From: Synechococcus sp. SB0662_bin_14
GTDB lineage: Bacteria; Cyanobacteriota; Cyanobacteriia; PCC-6307; Cyanobiaceae
Direction of reading: 5' to 3'
Assembly: GCA_009840445.1 (NCBI GenBank)
Contig: VXNS01000004.1
Location: forward strand, 1 to 52,391
Length of the DNA stretch: 52,391 bases
The notes beneath the pieces are model-generated. The model had not been told where the DNA came from and did not search any database. It was given only the letters and a program-made list of their open reading frames with translations. Positions 2,391-10,070 of the stretch are shown here, piece by piece (within the stretch, counting starts at the first letter, position 1; each line of letters starts with the position of its first letter). A program made the translations under genes and the position numbers.

Positions 2391-4082
2391 TCAGCCTCCC
2401 GGCAGACGCTCTTCCCGCCGCAGGCGCAGGTTGGCTTGTAGCCAGCCCTTCACCACAGGCGCCATGGCCGCCAGGGGCAGCACCGCCAGCCAGGGGGAGG
2501 CGCTCAGACTGGTGGAGAGGATGGCGGCGGCAATGGCCAGGCCCCCCAGAAGCATGGCTTGACCACTGGATTGCTGCGCCAGCACCAAGCGCCGCAGAAT
2601 GCGCTCACTGTCCCCGGAGCGCACCTGCACCTGCAGGTCTCCCTGCTCCAGCCGGGCCAGGCTTTCATCCAGGCGGCGCGGAATACCCAGGGCACGGCTG
2701 CCCACTTCCGCCGCCTGGCGGCTGAGACCACTGAGGAAAACCTTGGTCCCGGCGCCTTGGCTGTCCTTGTCTTGACTGTTCATGAGAGGAATGAGGTAAG
2801 GCTTGGCGATGTCCACCAGGGTAAAGTCCGGATCCAGGGTGCGGCCAACTCCCTCGAAGGTGGAGAGGGCCCGCAGCACGAAAATCAAATCCGGTGGTAG
2901 ACGAAAGGGTTGGCCATAGACCAGATCGTAAATATCACCGGAAAGCTTCTCCAACACATGGGAGGAGAAGGGGGGGGTGAGCACTTCCTTGAGCATCAGC
3001 CGCACCAGACGCCGCACAGGCCCCAGGTCAATGCCCTTGGCCAGCAGACCCACCCGCTGCAATTCTTCGGTGAGCCCGGCCGCATCCCGTGATGCGGCAT
3101 AGGTCACCATACGGCGGATACGGCTCCGCAACAGGGGGGACACGGTGCCCATCATGCCGAAGTCGTAGTAGATCAAGCCACCGTCATCGGCCACAGCCAG
3201 GTTGCCCGGGTGGGGATCCGCATGGAAAAAACCGAAGACCACCAACTGGCGCAGGTAGCTGCCCAAGCCACGGCTGGCCACCTCCCGGGGATTCAAGCCG
3301 CGCTCCAGCAATTCCTGACGGTCGGTGATCTTCAGACCGGGCACGTAGTCCAGGCACAGCACGCGGCGGCTGCAAAGCTCCCACACCACTGCCGGCACCC
3401 GCACCATGGGGTCATCGGCGAATTGCTGACGGAAACGGGCCGCGTATTCCGCTTCCAGACCAAAATCCAGCTCCCGCAGCAACACCCGACGGCATTGCAA
3501 CGCCAAGGCGGGCCAATCCCGACCCCGGCCCCAGCGGGGATGGCGCTGCAACAACCGGGCCACCTGCTGCATCACCTCCAGGTCCAACCGGAACAGTCGG
3601 TCCAGATTGGGGCGTTGCAGTTTCAGCACCACGGCGCGGCCGTCCGCAAGGCGGGCTCCATGCACCTGGGCCAGGCTGGCGGAACCCAGGGGCGTCTCCT
3701 CAATGGAGAGAACCTGGTTCAGCCGCTCACCCAACTCCTCGCGCAGCAACTGCCGGGCCAGGGAGAAGGGGAAGGCGGGCACCTGATCCTGCAGCTTGCT
3801 GAGCTGGGCCACGTAGTCGGGTGGCAGCACGTCAGGACGGGCAGAGAGGAGTTGTCCCAGCTTGATGAACGTGGGACCCATGTTGATGAGCTCCTGCAGC
3901 AGCCATCGGGCGCGCCGTCGCTGCTGCCGCCGTCGCCGCTCTTCCCGGTTGGGGCCACGGTCAACCCAGGGTTGTTGATCCCACCACAGCCGCAGCAGGA
4001 GCAGGGCCACAAACGTCCAGATGCGGACAATGCGCCGCTGCCGCCAGAGCCAGGACGCCCCGCTGTCGTGTCGCGCCGTCAC
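2391..4082 (-). CDS. ABC1/UbiB-family atypical protein kinase
   Basis: This is a member of the ABC1/COQ8/UbiB atypical kinase family, linked in plants and cyanobacteria to prenylquinone and lipid metabolism. The 563-residue protein shows a basic N-terminus with a hydrophobic stretch near residues 20-35, the family KxGQ motif in FIKLGQLLSARPDVLP, the Ala-rich nucleotide loop LGSASLAQVHGA, the phosphate-binding Lys in VVLKLQRP, the catalytic loop HADPHPGN and the metal-binding YYDFGMMG. Two hydrophobic C-terminal helices probably anchor it in a membrane. The start codon overlaps the stop of the upstream small gene by 4 bp (ATGA), so the two are probably translationally coupled. Pairing with eno recalls marine Synechococcus genomes (from memory). 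The substrate is unknown. Confidence 0.93.
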   Translation of the reverse strand: MTARHDSGASWLWRQRRIVRIWTFVALLLLRLWWDQQPWVDRGPNREERRRRQQRRRARWLLQELINMGPTFIKLGQLLSARPDVLPPDYVAQLSKLQDQVPAFPFSLARQLLREELGERLNQVLSIEETPLGSASLAQVHGARLADGRAVVLKLQRPNLDRLFRLDLEVMQQVARLLQRHPRWGRGRDWPALALQCRRVLLRELDFGLEAEYAARFRQQFADDPMVRVPAVVWELCSRRVLCLDYVPGLKITDRQELLERGLNPREVASRGLGSYLRQLVVFGFFHADPHPGNLAVADDGGLIYYDFGMMGTVSPLLRSRIRRMVTYAASRDAAGLTEELQRVGLLAKGIDLGPVRRLVRLMLKEVLTPPFSSHVLEKLSGDIYDLVYGQPFRLPPDLIFVLRALSTFEGVGRTLDPDFTLVDIAKPYLIPLMNSQDKDSQGAGTKVFLSGLSRQAAEVGSRALGIPRRLDESLARLEQGDLQVQVRSGDSERILRRLVLAQQSSGQAMLLGGLAIAAAILSTSLSASPWLAVLPLAAMAPVVKGWLQANLRLRREERLPGG

Positions 4083-4480
4083 AGGGTGTTTTGCTCAAGA
4101 CGCTGGTTCAGCCCGGCCACCTCGGCACGCAACTGGTCAATGCTCTCCTGCACCTGGGCAGGGCTGGTCCGCTTCCGGGTGGTGGGTTCCGGCTGGGGCT
4201 GGCTCTCACCTTCGGAGTCCTGCTGCTGGTCCGCGGCAGGCCCCTGCCGGGATGCGGTGGACGGCGATGGGTCCGGCTCTGGCGCCTCCTCCCCTGGCTG
4301 CTCCAGCCGCTCCGCCTCCAACTGGACTTCCTGCCAGAAAAGCTGCCACTCCTGTTGCACGTGCTGCGCCGCCAACTCCGCTTCCGTGACCATCTGGGCA
4401 GTGGCATCCGCAAGACCACTGCGAATCCGGGATCGTAGCCGGCTTGCAGTGGCCAGGAGCAGCATCCGCGTTGACGGCAT
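4079..4480 (-). CDS. Small hypothetical protein, predicted coiled coil, upstream of ABC1 kinase
   Basis: I do not recognise this family. Starting at the ATG at 4480 it has 133 residues; the frame is open to 4543. It contains a short hydrophobic/basic N-terminus (RMLLLATASRLRSRIRSGL), a Glu/Gln-rich helical middle, a Pro/Ser/Gln-rich low-complexity linker and a C-terminal heptad-like segment (QVQESIDQLRAEVAGLNQRL) typical of a coiled coil. Its stop overlaps the ABC1 kinase start by 4 bp, so the two probably share an operon and perhaps a membrane-associated function. Coding is supported by this overlap and by its position between two same-strand genes. Confidence 0.65.
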   Translation of the reverse strand: MPSTRMLLLATASRLRSRIRSGLADATAQMVTEAELAAQHVQQEWQLFWQEVQLEAERLEQPGEEAPEPDPSPSTASRQGPAADQQQDSEGESQPQPEPTTRKRTSPAQVQESIDQLRAEVAGLNQRLEQNTL

Positions 4481-4539
4481 ACCTGAAACACAAGGACCTG
4501 CAGTCTGAATCATGGGACCGGCAACTGCGTTGCCCCTCC

Positions 4540-5061
4540 TCAAGGGGCAGGAGGGGGAGGCGACGAGAGTGGCGGTGCCCCGAAGGACGGGGGAGCAGAG
4601 GCGGACGGTCCCGTAGGGGGAGGCTGGTTCCGGGTAGGTCCGTCGTCGCGGCGTTCAGGGGTGGTCCGGGTGACGGCTGGGGCTGGGCCGTTCGCTGGGC
4701 CATCCGGTGTCAGAACCAGTGGCGGTGGCACGGGACGGTCTGGCGGGGCGGTGGGATTCAAGAGTGGGGACAGTTGGCTTCCATAGCGGCGCACGAGGCT
4801 GTCCAGACTGGTGCCGGGAAGGGGTTTTGCGGCAAAGGGTGGGGAGAGGTCGAGGGGCTCGTAGGTCTTCGTCTGATCCCATAGCCGGAACGTCACGTGG
4901 AATCCCAGGGAGAGGGCCAGGCCGGCCACAAGGTGTCCCAGGGGGATCCAGGGGCTCTTCCACCAGGGTTTGCGGTTCTTTCCGGACGTCTTGCCAGAAG
5001 GGCCGCCTCTCCTGGGGGCAGTGGCCTGTTGAGACGCCTTGTCAGGTGGTGTAGTGGGCAT
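4540..5061 (-). CDS. Hypothetical single-pass membrane protein, Pro-rich tail
   Basis: This is an unrecognised protein of about 173 residues from the ATG at 5061. A basic, Lys-rich N-terminus (including GGPSGKTSGKNRKPWWK) precedes one hydrophobic segment (IPLGHLVAGLALSLGFHVTF). A region with LDSLVRRYGSQLSPLL follows, then a long Pro/Ala/Ser-rich tail. The topology suggests an inner-membrane anchor with an extended periplasmic or cytosolic tail. The start overlaps the 3' end of argJ by about 20 bp, so the run argJ - this gene - small coiled-coil gene - ABC1 kinase reads as one operon on the minus strand. The tail is compositionally biased and could mislead similarity searches. Confidence 0.65.
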   Translation of the reverse strand: MPTTPPDKASQQATAPRRGGPSGKTSGKNRKPWWKSPWIPLGHLVAGLALSLGFHVTFRLWDQTKTYEPLDLSPPFAAKPLPGTSLDSLVRRYGSQLSPLLNPTAPPDRPVPPPLVLTPDGPANGPAPAVTRTTPERRDDGPTRNQPPPTGPSASAPPSFGAPPLSSPPPPAP

Positions 5062-6292
5062 TGATGCGAATGTACTCCGGCGATAGATCACAACCCCAGG
5101 CAGACCCTGATGCCGGACCTGCGCCCACCACCAGGCGGATCTCCACGCAGTCGTCCTGCAAATAGGCGCCAGCGGCCCGCTCTTGCAGATAGTGCCTCAC
5201 AGCGGCCCGATCCACCGCCAGCGGCCCGCCGTCCTTGACCAATTGATGGGGACCGATCCAGAGGGCCAGGGCCTTGGGATCCAGGTGGACCCCTGAGCGG
5301 CCCGCCGCCGCCACGATGCGGCCCCAGTTGGGATCACGGCCATGGATGGCGGTCTTCACCAGGGAAGAACTGCAAATGGTGCGGGCCATGGTCCTGGCTT
5401 CGGCGGCAGTAGCTGTGCCGCTCACCGTCACCTCCAGGAGACATGTGGCCCCTTCTCCATCCCGGGCGACGGCCTTGGCCAAATCACGGCAGAGGCGCTC
5501 CAGGCCCAGCGCCAGTTGGGGCAGGTGCTCTGCAGGCAGGGGGGCGCCAGCGGCAAAGGCCAACACGGTGTCGTTGGTGCTGGTGTCTCCGTCCACCGTG
5601 ACGGCGTTAAAGGAACCGTCCACCGCCGCTTGCAGCGTCCGCTGCCACCATTGGGGATCCACCCCTGCGTCACAGGTGACGAAGGCCAGCATGGTGGCCA
5701 TGTCCGGGTGAATCATGCCGGAACCCTTGGCCATTCCCCCCAGGCGCACCACCCGGTCTCCGAGGCGAGCCTCCACGGCGTATTGCTTGCTCACCAGGTC
5801 GGTGGTGAGGATGGCCTCGGCAGCAGCGGTAGCGGCCTCCTCCGTTGCCGCCAACTCTGCGTTGAGGGCAGCCTGTCCCGCCAGCAGGCGGTCCATGGGC
5901 AGGGGCTGACCAATGACGCCGGTGGAGCAGATCTGCACCTGCTCCGGGGGAAGATCCAACCGCCGGGCCAGGGCTGTGGTGATACGCTCGCTCTCCGCCC
6001 GCGCCAAGTCCCCCGTGCAGGCATTGGCCTGGCCGGCATTGACCACCACAGCCCGGGCCTGCCCCCCGCTGCGCTGGAGCCGCTCGGCGCACAGGTCCAC
6101 ACAAGCCGCCCGCACCTGGTTGCCGGTAAAGACCCCCGCACAACTGGCCCCTGGCGGCGCCACCACCACCGCCAGATCCCGGGCGCCCGAAGGTTTCAAG
6201 CCCACAGCCACGCCACTGGCCTGGAATCCCGCTGGCGCCGTGATGCCTCCCCCAATGGGAGACCAGGAACAAGGACCCTCCACAATTCCCAT
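5042..6292 (-). CDS. argJ: Bifunctional glutamate N-acetyltransferase / amino-acid N-acetyltransferase
   Basis: ArgJ recycles the acetyl group in cyclic arginine biosynthesis (N-acetylornithine + glutamate) and can also make N-acetylglutamate. The 416-residue precursor is the normal length. The N-terminal GGITAPAGF, the KPSGARDLAV segment and the autocleavage site KGSGMIHPDMATMLAF are present, the Thr of ATMLAF being the new N-terminal nucleophile of the beta chain. TVDGDTSTND and HGRDPNWGRIVAA in the beta chain are also typical. The C-terminus ends in the family pattern EYIRINAHYTT. It begins at an ATG and leads the minus-strand operon that runs into the ABC1 kinase. Confidence 0.96.
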   Translation of the reverse strand: MGIVEGPCSWSPIGGGITAPAGFQASGVAVGLKPSGARDLAVVVAPPGASCAGVFTGNQVRAACVDLCAERLQRSGGQARAVVVNAGQANACTGDLARAESERITTALARRLDLPPEQVQICSTGVIGQPLPMDRLLAGQAALNAELAATEEAATAAAEAILTTDLVSKQYAVEARLGDRVVRLGGMAKGSGMIHPDMATMLAFVTCDAGVDPQWWQRTLQAAVDGSFNAVTVDGDTSTNDTVLAFAAGAPLPAEHLPQLALGLERLCRDLAKAVARDGEGATCLLEVTVSGTATAAEARTMARTICSSSLVKTAIHGRDPNWGRIVAAAGRSGVHLDPKALALWIGPHQLVKDGGPLAVDRAAVRHYLQERAAGAYLQDDCVEIRLVVGAGPASGSAWGCDLSPEYIRINAHYTT

Positions 6293-6365: not shown

Positions 6366-6695
6366 TTGCGCCCGTGTGGGAATCCTCGCTTAGTGTGGAT
6401 TCACGTTGACCATGGTCATGCCCTTCAGCGTTTTGTTTTCCGTCTTTGGCATGGGTGTGCCCTGATGGGCCTCCAGATCCGCCTGTCCGGCCAGGTGAGA
6501 GATCAGATTCGAGGTGTCCATGGGGAGGTGAAAGACCTGGGCGGCCGCATTGAGCGGGTGCGTGACGAGCTCAACGGTCGTATTGACCAGGTCAGCAGCG
6601 AACTCAAGGACGTGCGTGGAGAGGTGACGTTGATCAAGGGCCACCTCTCCGCCGCCCTGGCGTTGGGTTTATCCAAGACGGTTGAAACGCCGTGA
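6366..6695 (+). CDS. Small coiled-coil protein, possibly a frameshifted membrane protein
   Basis: The open frame has 109 residues, but only the part from MGLQIRL onward (about 76 residues) looks protein-like: a heptad-rich segment VHGEVKDLGGRIERVRDELNGRIDQVSSELKDVRG. In another frame just upstream (from about 6412) there is a short hydrophobic peptide MVMPFSVLFSVFGMGVP that stops where the coiled coil begins. The gene at 11079-11348 has exactly this order, hydrophobic helix then 'TRIDTLGGDLNARIEQV', in a single frame. This one may therefore be a paralogue with a one-base lesion near 6460. Function is unknown. Confidence 0.45.
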   Translation: MRPCGNPRLVWIHVDHGHALQRFVFRLWHGCALMGLQIRLSGQVRDQIRGVHGEVKDLGGRIERVRDELNGRIDQVSSELKDVRGEVTLIKGHLSAALALGLSKTVETP

Positions 6696-6906
6696 AGGCG
6701 TCAACGCTGGTTCAACGCCATGGGGGATGGCCGAGGAGCGCCCAGCGGATTGGTCCATTGCCGTTACGTGAAGATTGATTGCCCAGCTTGCACCTGGGCC
6801 GCAGAGAGGCTTGACAAAAGCGCGGTTGCCTGCTCAAATGTCAATGTCGCCAATGTTTGTAGCGTTCCCTCGTATGATTCAAAGAGCTGTCCCAGTTCTC
6901 AAGGCG

Positions 6907-6970
6907 CACACCAGCACACCAGCACACCAGCACACCAGCACACCAGCACACCAGCACACCAGCACACCAG
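6907..6970 (+). repeat. Eight perfect tandem copies of an 8-bp unit
   Basis: The unit CACACCAG is repeated eight times without interruption. Because 8 is not a multiple of 3, loss or gain of one unit shifts any reading frame that crosses it. It lies about 270 bp upstream of the autotransporter signal peptide, inside a frame that is open from 6720 into that gene, and could act as a slipped-strand switch either in the coding frame or by changing promoter spacing. It is too short and too tandem for a CRISPR array. Confidence 0.95.
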
Positions 6971-7000
6971 CCTAGCTAACTTCGCCCTAGCTAACTTCGC
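6971..7000 (+). repeat. Two perfect 15-bp direct repeats adjoining the 8-bp tandem array
   Basis: The 15-mer CCTAGCTAACTTCGC occurs twice head to tail, immediately after the 8-bp tandem repeat. Being a multiple of three, it keeps frame and would encode a repeated LANFA peptide if translated. It may simply mark a replication-slippage hot spot, or be a protein-binding site in the leader of the autotransporter gene. No promoter can be assigned with confidence in this stretch. Confidence 0.85.
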
Positions 7001-9562
7001 CAAGCCTGGTGCGAATGATAAAAATCTTGTAATAAAACTTCGCAACAATTTGTCGGGACTGGGCCTCTCTTCTCCAGGTTCTCCCGGATGCAGGTCTTGC
7101 CCACGGGACGGCGCAAACGTCTCGGGTAAAACAAGCCCACGTCAGTTGCTTCCCCAAGCGGATCCAGGCGCAAACTCCCTGACTCTTCTCCTGTCCGGAT
7201 GGTCTGCTGTTGCGTCCTTCTCAGCGTTAACAGCCTTGACCCTGGGAACACCAGCTCTTGCACATCATTTTAGATATGGAGACCAGTCCACAGATCCCGA
7301 AAATGGTCGTAAGGGTGGACTATTCATTCCGCCTGGACATCCACGTTACAACTTCACAGTTCCTATATGCACTCCAAACGATCTTGCAAGAGCTACTGTC
7401 TCTAGTCCCTTTACCTGGGAAGGTCAAACTGTGACCACCCATCGACTTGAGTGGCTCCCTAATATAGAATCACTCCCTTATTACGCAGTATGCCATGAAC
7501 CTGAAAACACCCCACCCGAGGTCGTTCGTCAGCATAGAGACATAACCTTCCCTAGATCCGGCATGGACGAGACGGATCGTCTTGCCTGGGGTTTTACCAA
7601 CAATCCAGGCAACCATTTCCGTGATCCCGACGGGGACGATCTCACCTACACCGCTGTCAGCAGCAATCCCGGCCTGGTGAGGGCAGTGATAACAAGCGGC
7701 GGCAGACTGACGTACAACGCCGTGGTGGGGGGAGGCACGGGAACCGCCACCATTACGGTGACCGCCAGGGACGGCGAAGACAGCGCCAGCTTGTCCTTCA
7801 CCGTCACGGTGTCCAGTTCCAGACCTGAAAGTTCCAGACCCGGAAACCAACCGGAAACCGAACCGGAATTTGAACCTGACCCAGAGGCGGAAACCCAGCC
7901 GGAGGAACTGGAGACCCAGCCGGAGGAACCGGAGACCCAGCCTGAAGAGGAGGAAGAGCAATCTTTCCTTGATGAGTTGGCGGAGAATTTTGACCCGGAG
8001 GGGACTATTGACGCGGGTAAGGACGTGGCGAAGGGCGAGATTGTTGAAAAAGTGGCAAAGAAAGTTTTGGGTAAGACGTTGAGAAAAGCTATTCCCGTTG
8101 GAGGATTTGTTGGCGACGTCAAAGATATTGCCGAATTTGCCTCTATGGTTGTAGATGTAGAAAGAACCAAAGCCCAGACCAGGAAGATAGAGGCCCAGAG
8201 ACAACAACTTGAACAACAGCTACAACAACGACTGGAAAATCAACAACCCGGCGTTGGCGACCAATCCAGCAGCGGGATGGGGAACCTGTTCAACGATTTT
8301 GCCACGGCGCTCTACGTCCACCAGGACGCCTTGGAGAACGGTAACTTCTCTCTGGCACAAGCGTTTTCCGGTCGGAAGTTTGCCTATCCCTTCTCCCTTG
8401 CCCAGGGCGGGGCAGAGGAGGAGGGGAGCGGCGGCAGTGCCAGGCGCTTCAGCGGTTTCTTCAGCGGCGGCGTGGATTTCTCCCGCTTCAGCGACGATAG
8501 CGGCGATTCCGACCTGGACGGCAGCAGCACCACCTACCGCTTTGGTCTGGACGTGTTGCCCAATCCTGAAGCACCACTGGTGACCGGTGTGCAGTTGGCC
8601 TTCACCCGCGCCGACGTGGATTTTGAGGACAGGGAGATCGACACCCGAGGGGGACTATGCCCTGCGGCTGTTCACCGTCTCCCCCACCGTTGCCTGGGAC
8701 GCCACGGACAATCTCACCCTCCAGGCCAGCATCAGCTACGGCCGTGGGGAAACAGAAACCACCATTGCCGCCATTGCCGACGACCGTTTCGACTTTGTGG
8801 AAGGCTCCACCACCACTGATAGCGGCGATCTTTTCAGCGTTGCGGCCGGCGCTAATCTCCGTGTGTGGGAATCGGACGTCTCCGCCCTTGCCATTCAGGT
8901 GGGTGGCGCCACCGTTTCCTTCCTGGATAGCGATAGCCAGCAGGGTCGCCTTGCTGCCCAGTTCTCCCGTGACTTCGCCCTTGATGCAGGCCGGGTGAAG
9001 TCTTCCGCGAACTTGGCGCTGCTGCTGAGCAACTCGGATCCCAGCGCCACGGAACTGAGCGGTTCCCTCAACTGGCTACCGGATCAAGGGCGCTTGAGCG
9101 GCTCCACCACCGCACGGGTGCTGCTGTTTGGGGGTGACCGCAGCGAATGGGGCATCAGCGGCGGCCTCTCCCTGCAGCCCGGCCCACAGGGGGAAGGCCT
9201 CTCCCTGGCCCTGCAACCCTCCTTCGGACAGGCCAACGCTTCCCTCGCGGGGCTGGAGGGTCTGGTGGATGCCTGGGATCGCTACAACGACCTGACGGAC
9301 CTGGACCTGGGCGCTACACCACTGACGGCCCGCTTCCATGCTGAAGTGGCCTACGGCATCCCCACCGGCAACGCTCTCCTCACCCCCTATACCCAACTGG
9401 ACATGAGCGACACCAGCACCCTCTACGGCGCCGGTCTCCGTTACGCACTGGACGACAGCCTGGATCTGGACCTGAGCGCCAGCCACCGCAGCCGCTCCTC
9501 CGGCAACAACGACAACCGCCTCTTCCTTCAGCTTCGTACCGATCTCTGATTGGTGCGGGGCT

Positions 9563-9650: not shown

Positions 9651-10070
9651 ATGTCTCGCTTCTTCTCTCGGCTGCTGATTGCTCCTGCTGTAGCTGGCTT
9701 CTTCTTGCTTCCCCATAGAGGTAGTGCGCAGGTAAAACGTGGTTTTAGTAGACAGCCCATTAACAAACAGGAGGTGGAAACCTCAAGCAGCGTACTCTCC
9801 GATTTCGAGAAATACGACATGTATATCGAGCAAGACTCAGACTTGTCCTCCTTTCAAAAAGATGAAAGTCAAAGTGAAAGTACACGAGAATACTTCACTT
9901 CAAATATAGCTATGGCACCTTTACCATCTATGACAAGAGTAACTTCTAAAAGTTTACGGCGAATGCCAAAGAAAATATTCATTTTCTTGTTAATTCCAAT
10001 TCTGTTGTTTGATTGGCTTTTCTGGTATCTTAAGAGAAGCCATGAAGACCCTCAAAGTAGGTCTACATAA
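9651..10070 (+). CDS. Small AT-rich membrane protein with a porin-like signal peptide
   Basis: From the ATG at 9651 this has 139 residues. The first 27 (MSRFFSRLLIAPAVAGFFLL...SAQ) look like a Sec signal peptide and resemble the N-terminus of marine Synechococcus SomA-type SLH porins as I remember them. The porin body is absent: a Ser/Glu-rich polar middle follows, then one C-terminal hydrophobic helix (KIFIFLLIPILLFDWLFWYL) flanked by basic residues. The rest of the gene is AT-rich compared with the GC-rich surroundings. It may be a chimera between a porin leader and foreign sequence, or a decayed exported protein. Function is unknown. Confidence 0.6.
   Translation: MSRFFSRLLIAPAVAGFFLLPHRGSAQVKRGFSRQPINKQEVETSSSVLSDFEKYDMYIEQDSDLSSFQKDESQSESTREYFTSNIAMAPLPSMTRVTSKSLRRMPKKIFIFLLIPILLFDWLFWYLKRSHEDPQSRST

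Follow-up and report, generated by a model that had tools for sequence, protein, structure and literature searches.

An array of eight perfect octamers upstream of a secreted-protein gene in the window (the whole stretch of 52,391 nucleotides analysed here) is probably an SSR contingency locus, and arrays of this octamer class would act as translational ON/OFF switches. The reading was reached from sequence anatomy and a comparison of loci, and the model was framed after the loci had been seen. Transcription would begin upstream of the array at a putative promoter, and translation would start at ATG 6844 (or at 6853 or 6874) and run through the CACACCAG array. With 4, 7, 10 and so on copies, ribosomes would pass through a long leader and reach the signal peptide of a barrel protein that is secreted and adhesin-like; with any other number they would terminate a few codons later, at a TAG or TAA in the CCTAGCTAA element. 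Replication slippage within the population, by gain or loss of an 8-bp unit, would in this way turn expression of the gene ON or OFF, and the assembled state of eight copies is predicted to be OFF. The locus is laid out as follows.

6366–6695, forward strand: small coiled-coil-like open reading frame of 109 amino acids, preceding the cassette
6811–6839, forward strand: promoter-like TTGACA-17-TCAAAT, a consensus match only (10 of 12 positions)
6844–6906, forward strand: probable start of the switch reading frame at ATG 6844 (alternatives 6853 and 6874, same frame), open into the array
6907–6970, forward strand: (CACACCAG)x8 array of perfect copies, which translates as (AHQHTSTP)n whichever frame is read
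6971–7000, forward strand: two CCTAGCTAACTTCGC 15-mers, giving TAG (6973) and TAA (6977) in both non-signal-peptide frames
7001–7193, forward strand: pre-signal leader, open in the signal-peptide frame only, with TTG at 7050 and 7146 and neither ATG nor GTG
7194–7262, forward strand: signal peptide core SGWSAVASFSALTALTLGTPALA, by eye
7263–8640, forward strand: mature N-terminal part with a Big_9 (bacterial Ig) domain, from the family model, and an acidic linker
8641–8654, forward strand: 1-nt frameshift relative to paralogues C47 and C74, which splits the gene in this assembly
8587–9549, forward strand: remainder of the outer-membrane beta-barrel in another frame, OMP_b-brl above cut-off

Eight perfect 8-bp copies followed by two 15-bp repeats ahead of the signal peptide had been described in an earlier note on this DNA, and both are confirmed, at 6907–6970 and 6971–7000. 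The (CACACCAG)x8 array is the highest-scoring tandem array in the window (score 132); two adjacent CACACCAG units occur seven times in the window and not once in 100 dinucleotide shuffles, and the window copy is the sole exact CACACCAG array in its genome, G000. The array is perfect and its unit is not a multiple of three, as in contingency loci, and like them it lies in the 5′ part of a reading frame that copy number would shift if ATG 6844 is used. The 3′ end of the small coiled-coil-like reading frame is found, too, ahead of the arrays at C47 and C62 and of a remnant (L007) in the genome SP3.

The frame from 6720 to 8819 is open through the array and on into the signal peptide at 7194–7262 (signal peptides were judged by eye throughout). 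The earlier claim of a frame open from 6720 holds to this extent, but a start at ATG 6720 is unlikely, because this codon precedes the promoter-like site and the equivalent frame of paralogue C47 is closed; the frame also stops short of the end of the protein, at the 1-nt frameshift. Frame 0 of the window contains no ATG, GTG or TTG between the promoter-like boxes (6811–6839) and the array. The ATGs at 6844, 6853 and 6874 lie in a different frame, which with eight copies ends at TAG 6973, and the translation start is probably ATG 6844, not 6720. Reading the flanks with 3–12 units connected ATG 6844 to the signal peptide at 4, 7 and 10 copies only. The promoter-like score of the window site was matched by 6 of 1000 shuffles; a stricter promoter scan at this site found no promoter.

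The same arrangement recurs before unrelated secreted genes both in G000 and in two congeners, and a third congener keeps a remnant. The order of this cassette is TTGACA-17/18-minus-10, ATG, homogeneous 8-mer array, short stop element, long open leader and signal peptide, and the array unit is CACACCAG, CACACCGG or CACGCCAG, one kind per array. In C47 the upstream region is nearly the same, the array is (CACACCGG)x4 plus one CACACCAG, and a single 15-mer stands in place of two, followed by an intact Ig-domain/barrel gene, and in C62 a (CACGCCAG)x4 array is followed by a secreted protein. Seven CACACCAG copies precede a leucine-rich-repeat gene in the congener G004 (C109). The congener G009 has one x4 array, and four of its contigs begin in CACACCAG arrays (contig ends C10, C16, C29 and C53), a pattern that two long arrays would leave if each had interrupted the assembly. 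SP3 retains a remnant of 2–3 copies. Copy numbers of 8, 5, 4 and 7 are thus found across paralogues and species (one genome per species), and the units have been homogenised separately at every paralogue; that every array is uniform with its own unit points to repeated slippage. The CACACCAG array was found in three genomes of this genus and in no others among 151 genomes drawn from the family, and a search of viral contigs returned none. With the leader as protein query only weak matches were obtained, one of which led to C62. Further octamers, CTTCTGAT, GCGCTCCT and CAGGAGCC, are present in G009 at C17, C60 and C4 (L241, L255 and L237); some of them adjoin TATAAT- or TACAAT-like boxes, and two are at contig starts.

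TTGACA-like and minus-10-like boxes, 17–18 nt apart, were found as consensus matches in all seven cassette upstream regions. Six of the regions score 10 of 12, a value that 0–6 of 1000 shuffles reach; for C47 the score is 9, which 58 shuffles reach. An ATG after the boxes opens into the array, and both other frames run into a stop no more than 18 nt past it; the CCTAGCTAA element supplies TAG and TAA in both non-signal-peptide frames, a part played by another sequence in C53. The stretch from array to signal peptide is open in the signal-peptide frame only at the window locus (C71), C47, C62, G004 and C53. The chance of such an open frame in shuffles is 0.096–0.136 per locus and jointly about 1.8e-4 for the four less related loci, a joint value that is optimistic because the leaders are partly related.

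These features bear on the possibility, which we consider unlikely, that the array is untranslated, that the protein starts at TTG 7050 or 7146, and that its repeat is a 5′UTR minisatellite, either neutral or weakly regulatory. In-frame TTG codons do lie downstream of the array in C71 and C47, and the array-free paralogue C74 begins at a plain ATG, with a leader of like length. C62, however, has no ATG, GTG or TTG in the signal-peptide frame and C53 has just one TTG, at the hydrophobic core, and a leader open in the signal-peptide frame only, at five loci, likewise argues for translation through the array. Starts have also been lost relative to array-free relatives. A relative of C62 at window position 9651, which has no array, carries ATG where C62 has ATA. 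In C41 (L166, 5511–5554), outside the cassette family, (TCGGCGGC)x5.5 is followed by the gene of a fibronectin-type protein, with at least 1,852 open codons; the ATG before this array is out of frame and no ATG, GTG or TTG occurs in the signal-peptide frame, and C78, a relative of C41 without the octamer array, has an ATG at its start. The seven copies in G004 are in frame up to the signal peptide. Under the translational model C71, C47, C62 and C41 are all OFF, and this outcome at all four octamer loci of G000 for which an out-of-frame ATG was identified favours an untranslated array; it is allowed by chance if the loci are switches, and fits unused ATGs equally well.

The products of these loci appear to be secreted or surface-exposed, with signal peptides (by eye) and Big_9, outer-membrane barrel, LRR and fn3 domains, and it is their production that the arrays would control. 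Family models support an outer-membrane barrel and a bacterial Ig domain (Big_9), and the barrel models above cut-off are OMP_b-brl and one other. The Autotransporter model is absent from the Pfam matches of the window protein, and TIGR01414 gave 13.4 bits for C47 (cut-off 16) and no match for the window protein, so that the family models lend no support to the name autotransporter under which the gene had been described. An AlphaFold2 prediction of the C47 barrel had a mean pLDDT of 32.5 and is uninformative on a 12-strand C-terminal barrel. A further barrel paralogue, with an ATG start and no array, lies on the reverse strand of C62 in G000 (local 2590–6201, L030), and its N-terminal part has by eye a likeness to a CAP/SCP-type domain.

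The window copy is frameshifted (8641–8654) where C47 and C74 are intact. dN/dS is 0.21–0.23 for the barrel (0.215 against C47 for the part at 8587–9549) and 0.22–0.42 for Big_9 (about 0.22 against C47 for the Big_9 region of the window), and the value of about 0.2 for the barrel beyond the frameshift indicates that the frameshift is recent or a sequencing error. Copies in G009 (C15/C10) and SP3 are broken, and that in G004 is frameshifted just after the signal peptide. It could be argued from the window frameshift and the broken G009 and SP3 copies that the locus is a pseudogene in decay and that its repeat is a relic without present function. We regard this as quite improbable, given a dN/dS of about 0.2 also past the frameshift, an intact C47, and an array whose copies are all perfect, which marks it as recent.

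A census of exact tandem arrays covered about 937 kb of G000 (the window, sampled stretches and three targeted loci) and was joined by pattern searches; arrays with a unit that is a multiple of three, or with three copies only, were left out of the repertoire count. G000 has at least 17 arrays of 4-, 5- or 8-bp units, which include the following.

Octamer arrays in G000: C71, C47, C62, C41, C26 and C56
Tetramer array (TGGC)x7.5: C19 (L189), 1325–1354, directly 3′ of an ATG and in frame with a secreted leucine-rich-repeat protein
Pentamer arrays: C12 and nine TATAAT-(CGGRT)n loci, at C8, C20, C42, C44, C55, C73, C78, C82 and C84 (L256–L264)

The C19 tetramer array resembles a classic tetramer switch in the ON frame, and more ATGs lie downstream of it. 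Runs of 47 G (L173, 8666–8712) and 51 C (L177, 1–51) at contig ends are probably assembly artefacts. The downstream gene is readable for 14 arrays, and in all 14 cases its product has a signal peptide by eye. Under a strict automatic secretion rule, six of the eight untargeted arrays pass, compared with 10.1% of random positions; the window and C41 fail it. In 400 kb of a closed relative from another genus of the family (G017), no array with a unit of at least 4 bp, three copies and 20 bp was found.

The (CGGAT)n and (CGGGT)n arrays lie between TATAAT and ATG, the readable ones directly before the ATG of secreted proteins, and TATAAT-(CGGRT)n arrays were present in G000 only, being absent from the 59 others of 60 genomes searched. 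Since the pentamer class is placed between minus-10 and ATG, its mode must differ from that of the octamer class. Five of these loci have six full units and C44 has nine; with most resolved pentamer arrays at six units, strong variability is unsupported there. That frame cannot matter in this second class would fit array length tuning transcription or mRNA properties, like spacing-type SSRs, instead of frame, a reading that we think very unlikely for the window, where the array is downstream of the promoter-like boxes and ATGs and not between minus-35 and minus-10, and which six copies in most resolved pentamer arrays also disfavour.

The proposal in the earlier note of a phase-variation switch is therefore retained in an altered form: the recurrent cassette, the separately homogenised units, the copy numbers of 8, 5, 4 and 7 and the at least 17 5′ arrays speak for it, whereas the start at 6720 and the assumption of a free-living host are given up. 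A broader claim, on which our confidence is evenly balanced, is that at least 17 SSR contingency loci across the genome, with units of 4, 5 and 8 bp, may bring random variation to the adhesin-like and eukaryotic-like proteins that G000 secretes, and that a mobile promoter-ATG-array-stop cassette may have been placed before unrelated surface genes.

Repeats of this kind had been thought unusual on the premise of a free-living picocyanobacterium, which proved wrong. With the barrel domain as query, the nearest named relative is Candidatus Synechococcus spongiarum SP3 (G005; 73% identical), a sponge symbiont, and the genome of the window (2.16 Mb, 85 contigs) belongs to the same genus, which rules out a free-living origin. 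The Ca. S. spongiarum lineage is sponge-dwelling (PMC5408123, PMC6506613), and secreted eukaryotic-like proteins are known from these symbionts in work that does not mention phase variation (PMC6506613). No report of phase variation in these sponge symbionts was found in the literature searched, which is not proof of its absence. If the switch model is true, a sponge symbiont would have a contingency repertoire at secreted LRR, fibronectin-type and Ig-type genes, one that the sampled relatives were not found to share. Most known cases of repeat-driven phase variation come from vertebrate-associated bacteria, and pathogens switch adhesins on and off randomly; a repertoire of this kind would suggest that the same bet-hedging is favoured by life in an animal that has innate immunity or feeds by phagocytosis.

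Translational SSR contingency loci are well known from Haemophilus, Neisseria and Campylobacter. The window locus is like these in having a unit that is not a multiple of three, placed after a start codon near the 5′ end of a surface-protein gene, where slippage would shift the frame. It differs in that the 8-bp unit lies inside a long pre-signal leader, ahead of a short element that carries stops in the two remaining frames, and in that one cassette is common to unrelated secreted-protein genes, in a cyanobacterium. The leader shares an unusually long N-terminal extension before the hydrophobic core with the long signal sequences of autotransporters and their extended signal peptide region (PMC2805444), a likeness by description, and unlike them it contains a repeat. 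Within the cyanobacteria, the heptamers GGGGA(C/T)T of Nostoc have variable copy number and a unit that is not a multiple of three, and their attachment to all gene classes led to the judgement that a part in phase variation is unlikely (PMC4692102); no such association is seen here, where 14 of 14 readable arrays precede secreted-protein genes. The nearest described case that we found by unit size is that of hmw1A/hmw2A in Haemophilus influenzae biogroup aegyptius, in which 12–15 copies of the octanucleotide GCATCATC, differing between strains, lie upstream of an adhesin gene (PMC3309571). The hmw1A/hmw2A repeat has been described as part of the putative promoter region (PMC3309571), whereas the window array follows both the promoter-like site and an ATG.
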